A DNA stretch of 64,000 bases from a virus: IMG/VR virus record IMGVR_UViG_3300036715_000626, positions 1 to 64,000 of that record; one strand, given 5' to 3'. The notes under the pieces are model-generated. The model was not told where the DNA came from. It did not search any database and saw only the letters and a list, made by a program, of their open reading frames with translations. This document shows, piece by piece, positions 16,840 to 61,395 of this stretch. Position 1 is the stretch's first letter. Every line of letters starts with the position of its first letter. The translations under genes were made by a program, and so were the position numbers.

Positions 16840-19032
16840 TTATGTCGAGAATGTTAAGGTATTGTCAAGAAGCAGCGTTATACTGTCCCACTTCTTATCT
16901 CCTGTAGCTTCACTAATGTTTCTATCGCGAGTAAGGATCAGATCTCTAAACGTATATGTTCTTAAGAGGTTACCATCTATCCAATGCAAAGTTCCGCTAT
17001 CCGCATACGTAGTACCTTCAATAGTAATACTATTATACATATAAGGATTTTCAATAGTAATCAATTGTCCTGCGTTAACTACAAGATCGGTAGTAGCATC
17101 TACGGTAGCAATATCGACAGTAGTAGTATACGTATTTGAAACATAAGTATAGACTTTCTGCGGGTCTTTTACATTAGAAGATACTCTTAGGATATCGCCA
17201 TTACGTAAGACAATACTATTTAAATACTCCATAGAGTCTGCGTGGTCGTTATCATTGTGTACTATAGTGTAATCCGTAGTGTCCAATAATATTGTACGCT
17301 GATTACTTACTTCAGGACCAACTTCACTAGCATTAAAGATTACTACTTTATAATCTCTTCTGGTATAAAGTTGGAAATTATAAATATACTTAGATATGTC
17401 AATAGGTAATGTTCCTACGTTAGTCCATGTGTCTGTAGAAATCTTATATTTCCAAATATCGTTATTAGTTCTCGTAAATACATTAACATCATTAAGTGTT
17501 TCAAACGTATTACTTCCGCCAATAGCTAATATGGTGTCCGTATCGACTGATACTAAGCTTACGTATCTGGTAGCGTTAAATGGTAGCGGTTTTACAATGG
17601 TTATTTCCATAGTTTCGGTATTAAGTTTCTTAAGAGACAGATTGATTTCGTTACCTTGTGAATCAAGCTCTAAGGTAGGTACATAATAAACTTCGTTATG
17701 ATTAACTACTGCTGCTGATGTAGACATACCCGTAGAGTAACGTTCATTTTCACGTATAACAGTATTTATCTCAGTGAGTTCATGTGTTATAGTATTGTAA
17801 TCATAAAGTGTAAAACGGCTTTTCTTATATTTATTGTGATTAACATCTAAACTATAGTCTACTAATAGTCTACCTGAATTCAGAGGTATGAAATTAAAGA
17901 ATGGTATATCCAAAGGATCTTTAGTTCCTACAATAGATAATAATGTACCGACTTCAAGAAGCTGTTTATTACTAATAACATATCGATAGATATTTGTATC
18001 GTTATTTTTAACACCGAAGATAGTTCCGTTATAGAATTGACTTGTAGATTGAATAACGGTGCTATTTAACACTAACGGTTGTGTGTAAGTATATGCATCA
18101 AGATAACTTATATTATCGCTAAACTCTATAAGTTGGTTATTTTTAATAACTGATTTAAAGACAGTTCTATATTTGGTAACAGAACCATCGATAAGTTTAA
18201 TGCGCGCTTGTACCGTATACTTAATGTTAGGGCGTAACACACCGGTGTATATGCGAGGTGTTTTAGAAGTTTGATCGTAGTTGCTTGCTACGATATCTCC
18301 TAGATCATCCCTTATAATAATATCTACTGTTTTGAACTTACTTGTAAATACCTTAAGTACAAAATATAACCATTGTTCTGGTACTAATGGAAATGGAGTA
18401 GTGATATCGAAAATACCACTATCATTGTTATAAATAGTAAATGAAGTAATACCAAAATTAGAACTATTCTTATTCGTAGAGTTATACTGTACTTTTATTA
18501 GATAAATCTTGTTAAGAGACATCTCCCCTAGATCTACAGTAAACGAAGTAAGATTATCCTTATCGTTTTTACGTTCATAAACAACTTTACCATCGGTATC
18601 TGTAATTATCCATGTTGTAGACTCGTGGTTTCCAACACCTGTAAACAATTGAAATTTACTAGCATTAATTACTAAATGACCTTCAATATTACCATCGTAG
18701 TCAAGTTCGTACGAAACTTTTGGTGTAGAGATAGCCGAACTAGAAACCTTAAGCCCTATCTGTAATGAATCAAAAGGAACAATATTACTCCAACCGGATG
18801 TACTACTATCGCTAAAATGATACATCGTTCTTACGTATAATGTACCGACAATGCTATTGTCGATACTAACATCATATGATGTCAGATTTATAACGTCGTT
18901 TAAAGAATTCGCTATAAGTAGATTATCGGTAAAAGCATCATCCTTGGATACTTGCCAAGATGTTCCGGTGTGTAGTATTGGTAATGCTGAATTAATGTTT
19001 GGTGTTTCTACATGTAATCTTATTGTTCTCAT
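16840..19032 (-). CDS. Probable tail fibre / receptor-binding protein with Kelch-like repeats
   Basis: The 730-residue protein is beta-rich and Asn/Thr/Ser-rich, typical of fibre proteins. Residues ~20-85 (TSWQVSKDDAFTD through WSNIVPF) form a domain repeated in the neighbour at 19041-19388. Middle parts look like fibronectin-III-type strands. Residues ~370-580 contain Kelch-like blades, for example DTILAIGGSNTF followed by NDIWKYKISTDTWTNVG, which suggests a propeller. Such proteins recognise host surface sugars or proteins at the tail tip. The nine-base spacing from the upstream gene and its AGGAG site point to one operon. Confidence 0.85.
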   Translation of the reverse strand: MRTIRLHVETPNINSALPILHTGTSWQVSKDDAFTDNLLIANSLNDVINLTSYDVSIDNSIVGTLYVRTMYHFSDSSTSGWSNIVPFDSLQIGLKVSSSAISTPKVSYELDYDGNIEGHLVINASKFQLFTGVGNHESTTWIITDTDGKVVYERKNDKDNLTSFTVDLGEMSLNKIYLIKVQYNSTNKNSSNFGITSFTIYNNDSGIFDITTPFPLVPEQWLYFVLKVFTSKFKTVDIIIRDDLGDIVASNYDQTSKTPRIYTGVLRPNIKYTVQARIKLIDGSVTKYRTVFKSVIKNNQLIEFSDNISYLDAYTYTQPLVLNSTVIQSTSQFYNGTIFGVKNNDTNIYRYVISNKQLLEVGTLLSIVGTKDPLDIPFFNFIPLNSGRLLVDYSLDVNHNKYKKSRFTLYDYNTITHELTEINTVIRENERYSTGMSTSAAVVNHNEVYYVPTLELDSQGNEINLSLKKLNTETMEITIVKPLPFNATRYVSLVSVDTDTILAIGGSNTFETLNDVNVFTRTNNDIWKYKISTDTWTNVGTLPIDISKYIYNFQLYTRRDYKVVIFNASEVGPEVSNQRTILLDTTDYTIVHNDNDHADSMEYLNSIVLRNGDILRVSSNVKDPQKVYTYVSNTYTTTVDIATVDATTDLVVNAGQLITIENPYMYNSITIEGTTYADSGTLHWIDGNLLRTYTFRDLILTRDRNISEATGDKKWDSITLLLDNTLTFST

Positions 19033-52291: not shown

Positions 52292-52322
52292 AGTTAGATA
52301 CAGGCTACGCCTGTATCTAACT
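52292..52322. terminator. Bidirectional terminator
   Basis: A 14-bp perfect stem AGTTAGATACAGGC with a TAC loop separates the convergent genes 50632-52287 and 52322-52633. Confidence 0.75.
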
Positions 52323-52633
52323 TAATCTTTTTTAAACAACCCGGCAATTAGCAGTGTTGTCACAGCACCGATAACTGCTCCGATAGCTATCCCAGTTGCT
52401 AATTTTTTTGTATTGTGTTGTTTATCGTACCAACCAGATAACATATCGAGATAGGAGTTATTAACAACTGGCTCGTCCGATTTCGGGTCAGATACTGACC
52501 CGGATTCTTTTGTTTCCTCTTTCATTTCTGACTCCTCTTTCATTTCTGACTCCTCTTTCATTTTTGTTTCCTCTTTCATTTTTGTTTCCTCTTTCATTTT
52601 TGTTTCCTCTTTCATTTTTGTTTCCTCTTTCAT
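52322..52633 (-). CDS. Tail-anchored protein with MKEETK repeats (103 aa)
   Basis: The N-terminal 42 residues are seven tandem hexapeptides, MKEETK or MKEESE, a highly charged helix. After a short linker comes LSGWYDKQ, also present in 52661-53314, and then a C-terminal membrane helix (ATGIAIGAVIGAVTTLLIAG) ending FKKD. Every repeat starts with ATG and carries its own GAGG site eight bases ahead, so translation could begin at any of seven in-frame points and give products of different length. GAGGAG lies before the first ATG. Confidence 0.8.
   Translation of the reverse strand: MKEETKMKEETKMKEETKMKEETKMKEESEMKEESEMKEETKESGSVSDPKSDEPVVNNSYLDMLSGWYDKQHNTKKLATGIAIGAVIGAVTTLLIAGLFKKD
52508..52633 (-). 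repeat. Seven tandem 18-base units containing RBS and ATG
   Basis: Units read ATGAAAGAGGAAACAAAA on the minus strand, with two units carrying the AGTCAGAA ending instead. The true leader just upstream (GAGGAGACAAAAA before the first ATG) resembles the unit, suggesting the array grew from the initiation region. Confidence 0.85.
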
Positions 52634-52660
52634 TTTTTGTCTCCTCAGACTTTGATTTAA

Positions 52661-53314
52661 TTACTCAGAAATGATGACATCGCTGTCGTCATTACCGAAA
52701 TATCTAGCCACAAATTTTGCTGTGAAATAAATCGCAGCAATTATGGCCACAGTACTACCAGCCACAACCGCAACCTTTACAGGTGTTGGTTGTTTGTCGT
52801 ACCAACCAGATAAAATTTTCTGGAAGGATTTATTTTCTGGTTTACTTTCATCAATCACTTTGTTCGTGACTGATGAAACTTGGTCGATCATTTGTTCGAA
52901 CACACCCAATGGGTCATCCGGCTTTTCCGCATGATCTTGAACCATAGGTTCAATTTTCTCACGCCATATGCTATCGACATCGATAAATTCGCCGTTAACG
53001 ACGGCTTCATCGAGAGCCGCTTTGAAGTCTTCTATAAGACCGCTAACAGCCACTTTTTCACTAACCATAAGTTTGGCTAGTGATAAGTACCCAAAGCCAT
53101 CACTAATAACTAACGCGATCTCGCGTAATGTATCGTCACTAGCAGTGGAACAAAACACTGTTAGTTTGTTAAGATAGGATATCATCGGAGTAATATCCGA
53201 TTCTACTGTGCATTGTTTTAATACACTTACTAACTCTGCAAAAGTCTTTTTTGCGAGTGGGAAATCTTTAGCTGTTTCAGCAACGTATGGACCATCTATA
53301 GTGTTAACGCCCAT
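52661..53314 (-). CDS. Tail-anchored protein, paralogous C-terminus (217 aa)
   Basis: The first ~165 residues are a helical soluble domain. Then LSGWYDKQ (near 171-178), shared with the neighbour at 52322, leads into a membrane helix (VKVAVVAGSTVAIIAAIYF) and a charged end GNDDSDVIISE. The two genes therefore look like an anchor module duplicated with different N-terminal parts. AAAAGGAGAATACCACC precedes the ATG. The function is unknown; location at the host inner membrane is inferred. Confidence 0.82.
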   Translation of the reverse strand: MGVNTIDGPYVAETAKDFPLAKKTFAELVSVLKQCTVESDITPMISYLNKLTVFCSTASDDTLREIALVISDGFGYLSLAKLMVSEKVAVSGLIEDFKAALDEAVVNGEFIDVDSIWREKIEPMVQDHAEKPDDPLGVFEQMIDQVSSVTNKVIDESKPENKSFQKILSGWYDKQPTPVKVAVVAGSTVAIIAAIYFTAKFVARYFGNDDSDVIISE

Positions 53315-53424: not shown

Positions 53425-55059
53425 TTACAATGTGTAGTATTTGATAAGGTTAGCGATCGATGTATCGTTAAGAAGAGTACGATCTTTAGAGAACGCATGT
53501 TTGAAATTTACTTTCGCAGAATTCGCTTTACGTGTAGTTTTGTTAGCAAGTAACGCAATGACCGTTACTAATGCTTGATACGTTTTCAAACGTTCTGCAC
53601 CGAATGTCCACAAGTTATCAAAACGATGAAGTTTGATTTCATGGAATGCGTCTGTTGCATAGTGATGGAATACCATATTGACGAGATCAAATTTAACACG
53701 GAATGCTTGATAAACCGGAGTATCGACAACTGATGTCAATACGTTGTAAAGATCATAGTTACGCCCAGCACAAACTTGATCAGGAAGCATAGGTGTAGAA
53801 TTACCCATATCAGCATTATAACTAATAAGCTTACTAACCAATGTACGGAATTCGAGTGTACCTTCAGCAAGAATCTTATCAAGTTTGTCTTCAAATGACA
53901 TTTTGCTATCGTGAATAATAGCGTGTACATCATCAAGTGACAACTGTGGTTTCTCAGGTGCTGTATCAGCTGCTGATAACGGAGCGACTGTTGGTGCTGG
54001 TGTAACTTCAGGAGCTGCCGGAACATCAGATACTACTGGTACATCTACAACAGGAGCTGCTGGTTCAGATACTACTGGTGCGTCTACAACAGGTGTTACT
54101 GGAACAACGGTGTCAGCGATAACTGTAGCTGTTGCTACGTCTGGTGTAACTTCAGGAGTTGGAACATTTTCTACCGGAGCTGTTACTGGTGTATCGTCTA
54201 CAGGAGTAGTAGCGGTTGCATCAACAGGAGTTGGAACTTCAGAAACAGTAGCAGGTGTTGTTGTGTCAACAACTGTGGCGGTGTCTAACGCTGGTGCGTC
54301 TACAACAGCCGTGGTGCCAGGCGCTACGGCGTCTACAGGTACCACGACCGTATCAACTGCTGGTGTGTCTGCAGCAGTTGTATCAACTGCTGGAGTAGTT
54401 GCAGCAGTTGTATCAACTGCTGGAGTAGTTGCAGCAGTTGTATCAACTGCTGTTGTGTCTGTAGCAACTGTATCTACAGTTGCAGTAGTTGCAGCAGTTG
54501 TGTCAACTGCTGATGTGTCTGCAGCAGTTGTATCAACTGCTGGTGTATCTACAGCAGTTGTGTCAACTGCTGATGTGTCTGCAGCAGTTGTGTCAACTGC
54601 TGATGTGTCTGCAGCAGTTGTATCAACTGCTGGTGTATCTACAGCAGTTGTATCAACTGCTGGTGTAGTTGTAGCAGTTGTATCAACTGCTGGTGTATCT
54701 ACAGCAGTTGTATCAACTGCTGGTGTATCTACAGCAGTTGTATCAACTGCTGGTGTATCTACAGCAGTTGTATCAACTGCTGGTGTGTCTGTAGCAGTTG
54801 TATCAACTGCTGGAGTAGTTGCAGCAGTTGTATCAACTGCTGTTGTGTCTGTAGCAACTGTATCTACAGTTGCAGTAGTTGCAGCAGTTGTATCAACTGC
54901 TGTTGTGTCTGTAGCAGTTGTATCAACTGCTGATGTGTCTGTAGCAGTTGTATCAACTGCTGATGTGTCTGTAGCAGTTGTATCAACTGCTGTTGTATCT
55001 ACAGTTGAGGTATCGCTACCAGTTGACGTCGGAGTGGTATATTGTTTTGTCTTAGCCAT
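53425..55059 (-). CDS. DTTAV-repeat protein with C-terminal globular domain (544 aa)
   Basis: The start is the ATG at 55059 (AGGAG upstream); the frame to 55125 is an artefact of openness. Residues ~15-240 are a tandem low-complexity array of five-residue steps such as AVDTT, ATDTS and PAVDT, in larger ten-residue units. A Pro/Val/Ala-rich region follows to ~365. The last ~180 residues (from APEKPQLSLDDVHAII) form a helical globular domain ending IANLIKYYTL. Such Thr/Asp/Ala arrays often form extended stalks or are disordered. No signal peptide is seen. The role is unknown, possibly a virion or surface-exposed protein. The gene ends in a strong terminator. Confidence 0.85.
   Translation of the reverse strand: MAKTKQYTTPTSTGSDTSTVDTTAVDTTATDTSAVDTTATDTSAVDTTATDTTAVDTTAATTATVDTVATDTTAVDTTAATTPAVDTTATDTPAVDTTAVDTPAVDTTAVDTPAVDTTAVDTPAVDTTATTTPAVDTTAVDTPAVDTTAADTSAVDTTAADTSAVDTTAVDTPAVDTTAADTSAVDTTAATTATVDTVATDTTAVDTTAATTPAVDTTAATTPAVDTTAADTPAVDTVVVPVDAVAPGTTAVVDAPALDTATVVDTTTPATVSEVPTPVDATATTPVDDTPVTAPVENVPTPEVTPDVATATVIADTVVPVTPVVDAPVVSEPAAPVVDVPVVSDVPAAPEVTPAPTVAPLSAADTAPEKPQLSLDDVHAIIHDSKMSFEDKLDKILAEGTLEFRTLVSKLISYNADMGNSTPMLPDQVCAGRNYDLYNVLTSVVDTPVYQAFRVKFDLVNMVFHHYATDAFHEIKLHRFDNLWTFGAERLKTYQALVTVIALLANKTTRKANSAKVNFKHAFSKDRTLLNDTSIANLIKYYTL
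54350..55011 (-). repeat. Tandem 15/30-base coding repeat array
   Basis: Units of 30 bases (two 15-base halves, e.g. GCAGTTGTATCAACT on the plus strand) repeat about 22 times with small changes. Because no frame collects stops, the opposite strand also stays open from 54110 to 55153. Confidence 0.9.
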
Positions 55060-55114
55060 GATCGAATCTCCTAAATTTATATTCATTAATACTGTTAATC
55101 GGGTCATAAACACG

Positions 55115-55137
55115 ACACTAAGCAATATGCTTAGTGT
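55115..55137 (-). terminator. Hairpin after 55131-55868
   Basis: A 10-bp stem ACACTAAGCA with an ATA loop overlaps the stop codon; there is no strong T tract. Confidence 0.6.
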
Positions 55138-58155: not shown

Positions 58156-58701
58156 ATGGCAAAGAAAAAAACACCTAAACCAGAGGTTGTTGTGGCGGAT
58201 GGAACTAACACAGGAGAAGAGTTTACACGTAACCAAAAATTAAATTGGGAAGACATCGCATTGGCTCGCAGTGAAGCATGTAAGTCACTGATCGCGCAAC
58301 AAAGTTTGACACTTGAATTAACTAAAACTTATTCTGATATAATCGAATCAGATATTGAATTAAAAGAAACCATTCTTGGAATTTCAAACTCGTACGATGA
58401 TATCGTTGATGAAATCGTCGGTATCGACGAAGCTTACAAAATGCGTACCGGTGAAGTAGCCAATGGCGATGAAGAACTTGAGTATCTACAAATCGCAGAG
58501 CGCTATATCGCTATGCAAGAAAAAGTAGCTAACATTTCAAGTTCTGGTTTTATGGACGTCTTTGTTACCTTGAAAATTAAGGGTGTCGCAGGAATTGACA
58601 CAACTGACCTAAACGCTATCGCAGAGGCTGTAGTTGATGGTAAAAAAGATATTATCAATACTATTAAAGAAGCAGAAGCTTCTACTGAAAAGGAGAGTTA
58701 A
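58156..58701 (+). CDS. Unknown helical tail-operon protein (181 aa)
   Basis: AAGGGAATTATT precedes the ATG. A basic start (MAKKKTPKPE) is followed by an acidic all-helical body. Its stop overlaps the start of the next gene by one base. It heads a four-gene plus-strand group that I take to be hub or tail-assembly related. Confidence 0.8.
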   Translation: MAKKKTPKPEVVVADGTNTGEEFTRNQKLNWEDIALARSEACKSLIAQQSLTLELTKTYSDIIESDIELKETILGISNSYDDIVDEIVGIDEAYKMRTGEVANGDEELEYLQIAERYIAMQEKVANISSSGFMDVFVTLKIKGVAGIDTTDLNAIAEAVVDGKKDIINTIKEAEASTEKES

Positions 58702-60281
58702 TGGCTGATGATGTAAATACACCGGAAAGTGATGTTAGTCAGGAAGCACCTGTTAATACAGAACCACAACCCGAAACAAAAGAAGAACCAACACAGGTTC
58801 CTGTGCATGATGAGCCAGTTCCTAAGTATAGTGACAACCATCAAGCTACGTCGCCATATACGGATGAGAAAGCTTATGAAAAAAATAAAGGCTCGGATCT
58901 TGGTGTTGGTATGCCGGTAGCAGTAGCAAGTAAGATCATGCAGTTTTTAGATGTTTTGGAAAAACTTACTGAAGATGAAGTACAAGCGCGCTACACGCCG
59001 GAAGCTCTTGTGGCTGGCGGTATCGGTATTAATTCTATTAACCAAACTACGCACAAGGATATCTATGCTAGCGAGCTTAATGAAGATACCGATAAATTTG
59101 TAAACGGTATTAAGTTTATGGATCAAGATCTTAATTTACGACCGTTACCACTTAAAACAAATGCAGGTAAAGTTACTGGTGATATGGCTAAAGCCAGATT
59201 CACATCTATCCTTGGTATTGGTGAAGTTGTACAGATCCCGTTACATCATAGCGGTATTTGGATTGCTATTAGTCCTCCTAAGGATAACGAACTTATCAAT
59301 CTCGAAAACGCGTTATCGTCTAATCAGATTTTGTTAGGTCGTTTAACAAGTACGCTTGTATACTCTAACTACTCAGTTGTGTTTAATCGTATTCTTGTTG
59401 ATTTCATTTTAGATCATATGGTCGCTACGAGTCTTAAACTTACTGAAGAGGATGATATTCGTAACTATATCTTAATACAAGATCTCTACCCGTTAGTATT
59501 AGGTCTTATTACATCAATGTATCCTGATGGGTATAATATTACTCGTTCGTGCGCTAACACTATCGTAGAAGACGAGAATGGAGTTCCTGTATGTACATTT
59601 GTTTCTACTGCTAAAGTAGATCCTAAAAAATTACTTTGGTTAAACAGAACATCTCTTAACAAAGAGATGATGATGCATATGTCAAAACGCACGCCTAGCA
59701 GCGTTACGGTAGAAGACGTTAAATATTACCAATCTACTATTAACAAACTTGCTGACCAAGAAATCATCGTCACTGCTACCAATGGAACTATTATTAATAT
59801 TACCCTCACATCACCTACCTTGTTCGATTATATTACAAACGGTGAGTTATGGGTACAAAATGTTATTAAGAAAGCTGAAGATATCTTTGTAACTACTGAT
59901 ACTGCGGAAATTAAGAACGGTAAAGTATCTGATGTATTGTCAGCTGTATTACTTGGTATTTACAACGTATACGTCAAACGTATCGAAAGTGATGGAGCGG
60001 AAGTTGATGACCGTTACAGTATCGATGAAATTCTTGACACCATCTCGAGTGATGAGAAAATTCTTGATGAGTTTATCGAAAAAGTCCGTGCGTACATTAA
60101 TGGTGCGGTAATTGCGATTGTTGCTACACCTGACTTCGTTTGTCCTAATTGCCGTTCAAACCAACCAACACATGAACTCAAAGCGTTTAAAGATCTTGTT
60201 CCTCTTAATGTGGTAGAGAATTTTTTCGCCCTAAGCGCTCTCAGAATCAACAAAATTCGAAACCGAAACATCACGTCTTAG
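58701..60281 (+). CDS. Probable hub/tail-assembly protein with CxxC motif, frameshift donor
   Basis: The 526-residue protein has a Pro/Glu-rich disordered start (to ~70), a large folded middle, and near the end FVCPNCRSNQP followed by PLNVVENFFALSALRI. A CxxC element just before a hydrophobic helix resembles the gp26-type hub or chaperone proteins of T4-like phages (from memory). Codons 507-509 are AAT TTT TTC, forming the slippery heptamer T TTT TTC at 60221-60227, and the normal frame stops 17 codons later, while the -1 frame is open for 159 more codons. AAAAGGAGAGTTA precedes the ATG. Confidence 0.82.
   Translation: MADDVNTPESDVSQEAPVNTEPQPETKEEPTQVPVHDEPVPKYSDNHQATSPYTDEKAYEKNKGSDLGVGMPVAVASKIMQFLDVLEKLTEDEVQARYTPEALVAGGIGINSINQTTHKDIYASELNEDTDKFVNGIKFMDQDLNLRPLPLKTNAGKVTGDMAKARFTSILGIGEVVQIPLHHSGIWIAISPPKDNELINLENALSSNQILLGRLTSTLVYSNYSVVFNRILVDFILDHMVATSLKLTEEDDIRNYILIQDLYPLVLGLITSMYPDGYNITRSCANTIVEDENGVPVCTFVSTAKVDPKKLLWLNRTSLNKEMMMHMSKRTPSSVTVEDVKYYQSTINKLADQEIIVTATNGTIINITLTSPTLFDYITNGELWVQNVIKKAEDIFVTTDTAEIKNGKVSDVLSAVLLGIYNVYVKRIESDGAEVDDRYSIDEILDTISSDEKILDEFIEKVRAYINGAVIAIVATPDFVCPNCRSNQPTHELKAFKDLVPLNVVENFFALSALRINKIRNRNITS
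60221..60227 (+). promoter_or_regulatory. -1 ribosomal frameshift slippery heptamer
   Basis: T TTT TTC in the frame of 58701-60281, the canonical X XXX XXY arrangement in which both tRNAs can re-pair after a one-base backward slip. The overlap and the lack of a start site for the downstream frame support use. Confidence 0.7.
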
Positions 60282-60706
60282 ATATTGATTTCTTTAATTT
60301 AACCAATACCACAAAATACATCGACGATGTTTTGTACTTGTTAGACAGATGTCTAACAAGTCCTGAGAGCGCATTATTATTAGCCGATCTATATGATGCT
60401 GAATATGTAGTTGATAAACGATTTGATCGTAAATTAGATGTTAACGAAGGTATATTTGGACCTGTGCTACATAGAGAGAGTGAGAGTCTTTATGAGTTTA
60501 ATCAACTTGATATTATTCTAGATGAGTACATACAATTTGACATACTGAAAATGTACGGGTTATCCATTGATAAATATATGGAACTAACACGGTACGAACG
60601 TAGTGTATTAACGAAGAAAGCTTTGGACGCTATGCAAAAAATAAACGAAGAAGCTGAACGTTTAAGACGTGACAAGAATAACATGATGGGAGACTTAGAT
60701 AGATAA
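60227..60706 (+). CDS. -1 frame extension, gp26-like tail chaperone half
   Basis: This frame is open from inside the end of 58701-60281 to the TAA at 60706. The first start-like codon is a TTG at 60332 with no Shine-Dalgarno site, whereas residues before it (HHVLDIDFFNLTNTTKYIDDVLYLLDR) look like real coding sequence. Read by frameshift, it would add 159 residues to give a product of about 668. Its end (LKMYGLSIDKYMELTRYE followed by a charged helix) resembles the C-terminal halves of tail-assembly chaperones and gp26-type hub proteins. Independent translation from the TTG is the alternative. Confidence 0.75.
   Translation, partial: RPKRSQNQQNSKPKHHVLDIDFFNLTNTTKYIDDVLYLLDRCLTSPESALLLADLYDAEYVVDKRFDRKLDVNEGIFGPVLHRESESLYEFNQLDIILDEYIQFDILKMYGLSIDKYMELTRYERSVLTKKALDAMQKINEEAERLRRDKNNMMGDLDR
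60337..60360 (+). other. Perfect hairpin inside the frameshift extension
   Basis: CTTGTTAGAC pairs perfectly with GTCTAACAAG around a four-base centre, 110 bases after the slippery site, with a second small palindrome ACATCGACGATGT at 60318-60330. It might influence frameshifting at a distance, or may be incidental. Confidence 0.4.
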
Positions 60707-61395
60707 TGGGAAAACCTATTTCAATATTAATCGATCTAGATAGTTTATTAGATACTCGGTTACCAGTAGTGTATACACTCGATCCGGTATTAGCTTCTAC
60801 CATTATCGATAATGGAGAATACTCTAAGCGTAGAAAGGATATCTTTGGTAATATATCAAATGATATCTTTAAACCTATGTATAATGCTCGTAATAAGGGA
60901 GTACTATCGTTAGCTACACCCACTGGTATAATGAGATTCTTATTACCTTACGTAGCTGAGACTAAGATGGATCTTAAAAATAGTGACGGTCTAAACGATT
61001 TTTATATTTATATCAATGTCTATCCGTATAGTTTAGATATGACTGAACTTATCGAACTTGAGGGTGCGTTTACTCCTGTATTTGGAGATAACCGTATTAA
61101 GTTTGTTCATATGGATTTCGATGAATTATCGCCTAAATGGATTGATAACAATCTTGAAACATTGATATTATATAATGCTATCGATTGGGTTGAATATCAT
61201 ACAGCTAATACTAATATCATAAGAACACCACTTATAAGTAAGATACTTGTAGGTCCAGCTATAGCTGAAGGTAGTATTAAGACCGAAGATATAAACAAAG
61301 AGTTTTTTAAAGACATCTCTATATCATTAGGTAGTCTTATAAATTATCAAGCTATCGATGCCTCTTGTTTCTGTAGTTTACTTGTTGAAATTTAA
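60706..61395 (+). CDS. Unknown protein in the hub/tail-assembly group (229 aa)
   Basis: It starts at a TAATG overlap with the previous stop. It opens ISILIDLDSLLDTRLP, superficially like a HAD phosphatase motif I, but the pattern is not completed and this N-terminus is probably structural. The rest is mixed alpha/beta. Coupling to the frameshift gene suggests the same assembly pathway. The function is unknown. Confidence 0.8.
   Translation: MGKPISILIDLDSLLDTRLPVVYTLDPVLASTIIDNGEYSKRRKDIFGNISNDIFKPMYNARNKGVLSLATPTGIMRFLLPYVAETKMDLKNSDGLNDFYIYINVYPYSLDMTELIELEGAFTPVFGDNRIKFVHMDFDELSPKWIDNNLETLILYNAIDWVEYHTANTNIIRTPLISKILVGPAIAEGSIKTEDINKEFFKDISISLGSLINYQAIDASCFCSLLVEI

Follow-up and report, generated by a model that had tools for sequence, protein, structure and literature searches.

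Family-wide conservation supports a programmed -1 frameshift in the probable tail assembly chaperone gene of phiKZ-like jumbo phages

The DNA analyzed here (hereafter the window) is a stretch of 64,000 nucleotides that forms part of a 205-kb viral record, IMG/VR IMGVR_UViG_3300036715_000626. It carries phiKZ-type virion RNA polymerase subunits (RNA polymerase beta families) together with the PhiKZ_VTX vertex and phiKZ_IP inner-head families, and its source is a phiKZ-like jumbo phage. The gene order at the locus is that of phiKZ: RNA polymerase beta and an uncharacterized gene (opposite strand), a small gene of 181 amino acids (58156-58701, + strand), and then an open reading frame (ORF) of 526 amino acids (58701-60281, +), whose ATG overlaps the small gene by one base and whose phiKZ homologue is gp077. 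A small gene also lies directly upstream of the homologue in the relatives that were fetched. The 526-amino-acid product matches phrog_4585 (E=2.8e-89) and contains a near-invariant region with a first conserved cysteine pair (C284 and C298; 59550-59594, +) and, close to its end, a CPNC motif (C481 and C484; 60141-60152, +). Next downstream lies a gene (60706-61395, +) that matches phrog_3328, a family of no assigned function. No tape measure gene was recognized beside the 526-amino-acid ORF, where the neighbors are the virion RNA polymerase and genes of no assigned function; T4 gp26 also departs from the rule that a G/GT-type chaperone gene sits just upstream of the tape measure gene. The record of phiKZ gp077 holds no structural note, and several of its neighbors have one.

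Near its end the ORF reads AAT TTT TTC (60219-60227, +; AAT at 60219-60221), and since these codons are in frame, the heptamer T TTT TTC at 60221-60227 stands in the canonical slippery phase. The 0 frame continues as a coda of 17 codons plus stop (60228-60281, +) that overlaps the -1 frame; its stop codon occupies 60279-60281, the slip site lying 60 nt ahead of it. In the window the -1 frame is open from 60209 to 60706, and the putative extension (60227-60706, +), a helical tail domain present once in the genome, comprises 159 codons and a stop that the ATG of the phrog_3328 gene overlaps by one base. The first possible start in this frame is TTG at 60332, with no Shine-Dalgarno sequence ahead of it and 35 codons without any start before it. 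The predicted products are thus 526 residues from the 0 frame and approximately 668 residues (509+159) from the frameshifted reading. An initial annotation, made from the letters of the window, had described this arrangement; the coordinates and phase of the heptamer proved exact, as did the 17 remaining codons of the normal frame, the uninterrupted -1 frame to 60706, its want of a start preceded by a ribosome-binding site, and the sizes of the two parts. The heptamer by itself was discarded as evidence of frameshifting, in-frame heptamers being common in this AT-rich window: 44 of the form X XXY YYZ occur, three T TTT TTY sites lie in frame among 19,049 codons, and TTTTTTC is found 15 times, compared with 19.6 expected, i.e. 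without excess.

Conservation was judged from the relatives, which are distant. Direct searching of the phage collection found no similarity to the window at the DNA level, and a tblastn search with the 526-amino-acid protein matched 202 phage records, each at less than 60% identity. Scanning IMG/VR with the window protein alone returned no relatives, and the full 21-row alignment was too diverse to serve as a query; sub-alignments used as queries recovered them. Two sets were assembled. The annotated set holds 21 loci (L002-L022; approximately 18-27% identity to the window) from phages of Xanthomonas, Erwinia, Klebsiella, Burkholderia, Vibrio, Proteus, Pseudomonas, Serratia, Shewanella, Salmonella and Escherichia. 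The larger set holds 91 distinct IMG/VR loci, and statistics were computed on 76 non-redundant loci, the window included.

In all 21 annotated loci the two phenylalanines at the slip site are kept, and they are among only five invariant columns of the alignment. The nucleotides read T TTT TTY in 18 of these loci and have A or G before TTT TTY in the other 3, and a long -1 extension follows in every one. An automatic scan of the larger set located TTT TTY at 82 of 91 loci, each time followed by a -1 tail of 150-192 codons. The -1 frame is open in the remaining nine as well; four of them have TTT TTY with the end of the match mis-set past the stop, and five have a run of five T only (CTT TTT ATT and GTT TTT TCC/ATC/ACC). 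These five (L190, L203, L217, L218 and L219) retain the conserved -1 tail and are candidate natural variants for single-tRNA slippage.

Codon choice at the slip site is equally constrained. The first of the two phenylalanine codons is TTT in 76/76 non-redundant loci, where codon use in the individual genes predicts 28.6, and TTT is kept even in GC-rich phages whose genes elsewhere use TTC only. The nominal log10 P is -43.7 when loci are treated as independent; this value overstates the case because the loci are related by descent, although their divergence is large. Elsewhere in the same genes TTT TTY occurs once in 40,002 codons. A or G replaces the first T in 13/76 loci, and four non-redundant loci have five T only. 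By this comparison, conservation of the slip site is far beyond chance. The initial annotation had called for an alignment of related phages to see whether the heptamer is kept; what the alignment reveals is a T run retained across large divergence, reduced to five T in only 5/91 loci.

The -1 frame itself behaves as a coding part without a start of its own. It is open for 150-192 codons in all 76 loci, compared with a median of 12 codons for the +1 frame, and its translation forms one conserved tail domain whose alignment begins right after the slip site. The junction is FF|YP in most members and is followed by RPKRSQ in the nearest relatives of the window. The suggestion that the -1 frame is protein-like well before TTG 60332 is thus upheld, conserved sequence starting at the slip site. 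An ATG, GTG or TTG within the first 10 tail codons is found in only 2/76 loci, a start codon between the preceding -1 stop and the slip site in 6/76, and in 44/76 no start preceded by a Shine-Dalgarno-like sequence exists anywhere in the tail. When the window is compared with its closest relatives, substitutions fall unevenly on the -1 codon positions (e.g. 67/44/94), fewest at the second and most at the third, with dN of about 0.46. Profile searches of five genomes found both parts in single copy and thus turned up no second, fused long version in any of the five. Judged from comparative sequence, a conserved programmed -1 frameshift yielding products of 526 and approximately 668 amino acids is almost certain, and family-wide conservation gives strong support to the original proposal of such a frameshift in a tail chaperone gene. 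Public annotations do not reflect it: a frameshift join is recorded in none of the 21 loci examined in detail, a separate downstream ORF is annotated in many relatives, and in the public records examined the downstream part is missed or mis-started. In the SPN3US record (L020, 501-2478), the annotated features SPN3US_0036 and SPN3US_0037 share a long stretch, 2095-2207.

A -1 site can be stimulated by a downstream structure or an upstream Shine-Dalgarno sequence, neither of which is obligatory for low-level slippage. In the window, the 100 nt downstream of the heptamer fold no better than shuffled sequences (z +0.5), which bears out the initial remark that no strong stem lies directly past it. 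A conserved stimulatory stem was not found in the family either (mean z -0.9 over 100 nt, compared with -0.4 for a 60-nt upstream control), and an upstream Shine-Dalgarno-like motif is not enriched (3/70). A remote hairpin had been put forward as a stimulator instead. The hairpin is real in the window: 11 bp at 60336-60361 (+), inside the -1 frame about 110 nt past the heptamer, with a folding energy of -14.3 kcal/mol and z -4.3. However, the three closest relatives lack it at the equivalent position, which makes it an unlikely stimulator.

Searches of Pfam, NCBIfam and PDB sequences with either half recovered no family. At E<=10 the PF12322 HMM hit neither the window nor the other phiKZ-like genomes searched, compared with two hits in T4 itself; since no score exceeds the cut-off, the 526-amino-acid protein would be a distant relative of PF12322 and not a member. 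Comparison of single sequences with T4 gp26 and gp51 was weak, and family profiles were required. With hhalign, the 0-frame profile matched the T4 gp26 family with probability 93 and score 59, against a maximum of 25 for 60 column-shuffled profiles and 15 for the reversed profile. The alignment pairs both cysteine regions, setting C284 and C298 against the first T4 gp26 cysteine pair and CPNC against CPEC, and continues through the terminal FF. A Foldseek search with the AlphaFold model of the 0-frame part (pLDDT 86.7) placed other phiKZ-like relatives first, T4-like baseplate hub proteins next (E 8e-4 and 1.7e-3), and then non-significant matches named tape measure or tail assembly chaperone; the predicted structure had no significant match in a fold search of the PDB. 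Profile and model-based structure comparison together indicate that the 0-frame part is distantly homologous to T4 gp26. T4 gp26 and gp51 both belong to PF12322, and gp51 carries in addition, at its C-terminus, a stretch of phrog_634, the family of the cyanophage -1 tail. The -1 tail matched the gp51-type tail with probability 51 and score 25.7 (control maximum 15), which is suggestive, not proof, of a relationship to the gp51 C-terminal tail. These matches reverse the halves of the initial annotation, in which a CxxC protein was fused to a gp26-like half: it is the CxxC-containing 0-frame part that resembles gp26, and the -1 part resembles the extension that separates gp51 from gp26.

Other explanations of the junction can be weighed against these data. 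An independent downstream gene, translated from a separate start codon or through termination-reinitiation where the two frames overlap, would need no frameshifting, and would agree with the separate ORF that annotators list in many relatives and with the possible start at TTG 60332. Yet the conserved -1 protein sequence begins ahead of any start, early start codons are as scarce as described above, 44/76 loci have no tail start preceded by a Shine-Dalgarno-like sequence, and the T run would be left unexplained; we regard such a gene as very improbable. Slightly less improbable, and still quite unlikely, is transcriptional slippage, by which a T added in the run would bring the downstream frame into register. 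The run at the junction is homopolymeric, and the phage encodes its own multisubunit RNA polymerases. However, the runs are short (T5 to T7), often closed by C and preceded by A or G in many members, and the constraint fits the codon phase; in bacteria, transcriptional slippage usually requires longer runs. An indel artefact or a recently broken single ORF might also account for a lone -1 shift in a homopolymer. However, the same arrangement recurs across about 100 genomes of varied origin, each of which has a long tail past the 0-frame stop. The comparative data refute this explanation, and its probability is practically nil.

A further alternative accepts the frameshift and disputes the role, taking the protein for a baseplate hub component or another assembly factor and not a tape-measure chaperone. 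Some records do name relatives baseplate or baseplate hub protein, and T4 gp26 appears in PMC3004832 as a chaperone of hub assembly that is possibly also part of the hub. On the other side, expression in two forms with a C-terminal extension is a hallmark of tail assembly chaperones, and T4-like phages have been assigned short and long tail assembly chaperone genes (Vladimirov, Gautam and Davidson 2022, as far as cited in PMC10885494). We consider a hub or other role improbable, if less so than the alternatives to the frameshift. We infer that the gene most likely encodes the tail assembly chaperone pair of phiKZ-like phages, and the overall reading, in which such a phage makes its tail assembly (tape-measure) chaperone in two forms by -1 frameshifting, seems to us highly probable.

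According to this reading, most ribosomes would read to 60281 and produce the short form of 526 residues, which can be likened to T4 gp26 or lambda gpG. The remaining, smaller share would shift back by one base at T TTT TTC, presumably by re-pairing of Phe-tRNA on the T run and at a low to moderate frequency, and would read the -1 frame to 60706. The resulting form of approximately 668 residues would end in a helical tail, as a counterpart to T4 gp51 or lambda gpGT. If lambda is a guide, the tape measure protein may be coated by numerous short copies and a few long ones, the tails of the long copies may recruit tube subunits, and both forms would leave before the virion is completed. In lambda the two forms are made at about 30:1, from a heptamer that differs from T TTT TTC. 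The lambda gpG/gpGT pair and the predicted 526/668-residue pair would be alike in their mode of expression, gpG and gpGT also being two forms of one gene made by a -1 frameshift near its end, the long form with a C-terminal domain (PMC5009743). In the jumbo Bacillus phage G, the tail chaperonins gp181 and gp182 were annotated by their signature frameshift and went undetected in the virion (PMC8570332). Phage G belongs to a different lineage and has these genes in a tail cluster ahead of the tape measure gene.

T4 offers a further comparison. Its gp26 and gp51 (PF12322, phrog_150/634) are likewise a short and a long form, the long one adding a C-terminal tail that resembles the -1 tail, and gp26 shares the CxxC and the FF end of the distantly homologous short part. 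However, the T4 forms come from two separate paralogous genes, and there is no slip site (gp26 ends in TTC TTT, with no tail). The phiKZ-like protein exceeds T4 gp26/gp51 more than twofold in length, has a tail of 150-192 compared with about 45-65 residues, and lies below Pfam detection. Vladimirov and co-workers (2022, as cited in PMC10885494) describe short and fused long chaperone genes in T4-like phages in place of frameshifting; that work may already describe frameshifting in other T4-like phages. Within the T4 superfamily, gp26 of P-SSM5 (Prochlorococcus), VmeM-32 (Vibrio), S13 (Cronobacter) and LG08 (Rhizobium) is a single gene with a terminal T TTT TTC/T and a gp51-like -1 tail. Among cyanophage-type gp26 loci (L041-L120), T TTT TTC lies 12 nt before the gp26 stop in 80/80, with an upstream Shine-Dalgarno-like GAGGG/AAAGGA in 77/80, and P-SSM5 has a stem-loop past the slip site (z -3.7). 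In frameshift-type gp26 of the superfamily the slip site thus lies 12-15 nt before the stop, compared with 60 nt in the window, which has neither the Shine-Dalgarno sequence nor the stem. The public records of the cyanophage type that were examined list gp26 separately from a short gp51.

The slip-site FF of the phiKZ-like and T4-superfamily proteins falls at the same place in the profile alignment. We tentatively suggest, at somewhat less than even confidence, that the frameshift was ancestral to both groups of chaperones and that T4 later substituted gene duplication for it, with phiKZ-like phages running without a classical stimulator, some of them on a bare T5 by single-tRNA slippage. Such stimulator-free slippage, if true, would be unusually economical among bacterial -1 sites, and the phiKZ-like site is a case of slippage with no obvious stimulator. 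phiKZ and its relatives serve as the models for nucleus-forming jumbo phages. The literature searched, which lay largely outside subscription journals, reported no tail assembly chaperone for them and no frameshift in a phiKZ-family tail chaperone. The present reading would name that chaperone, phiKZ gp077 plus a -1 tail containing ORF 76.4, and would link the tail-building machineries of T4 and phiKZ through the gp26/gp51 likeness. Its interest lies in a frameshift that appears to be general among phiKZ-like phages and goes unrecorded in the annotations examined.

Several minor features were observed elsewhere in the window. A 730-amino-acid protein encoded at 16840-19032 (-) scores above the cut-off for the Kelch motif PF13964. 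In ORF 53425-55125 (-), a 30-bp tandem repeat of about 22 copies (54350-55004) belongs to a long protein rich in Thr, Ala, Val and Asp, and the strand opposite this ORF is also open, for 347 codons. An 18-bp tandem repeat (52508-52646) encodes MKEETK repeats at the start of the 103-amino-acid protein of ORF 52322-52633 (-), and the end of that protein resembles the end of the neighboring 217-amino-acid ORF 52661-53314.
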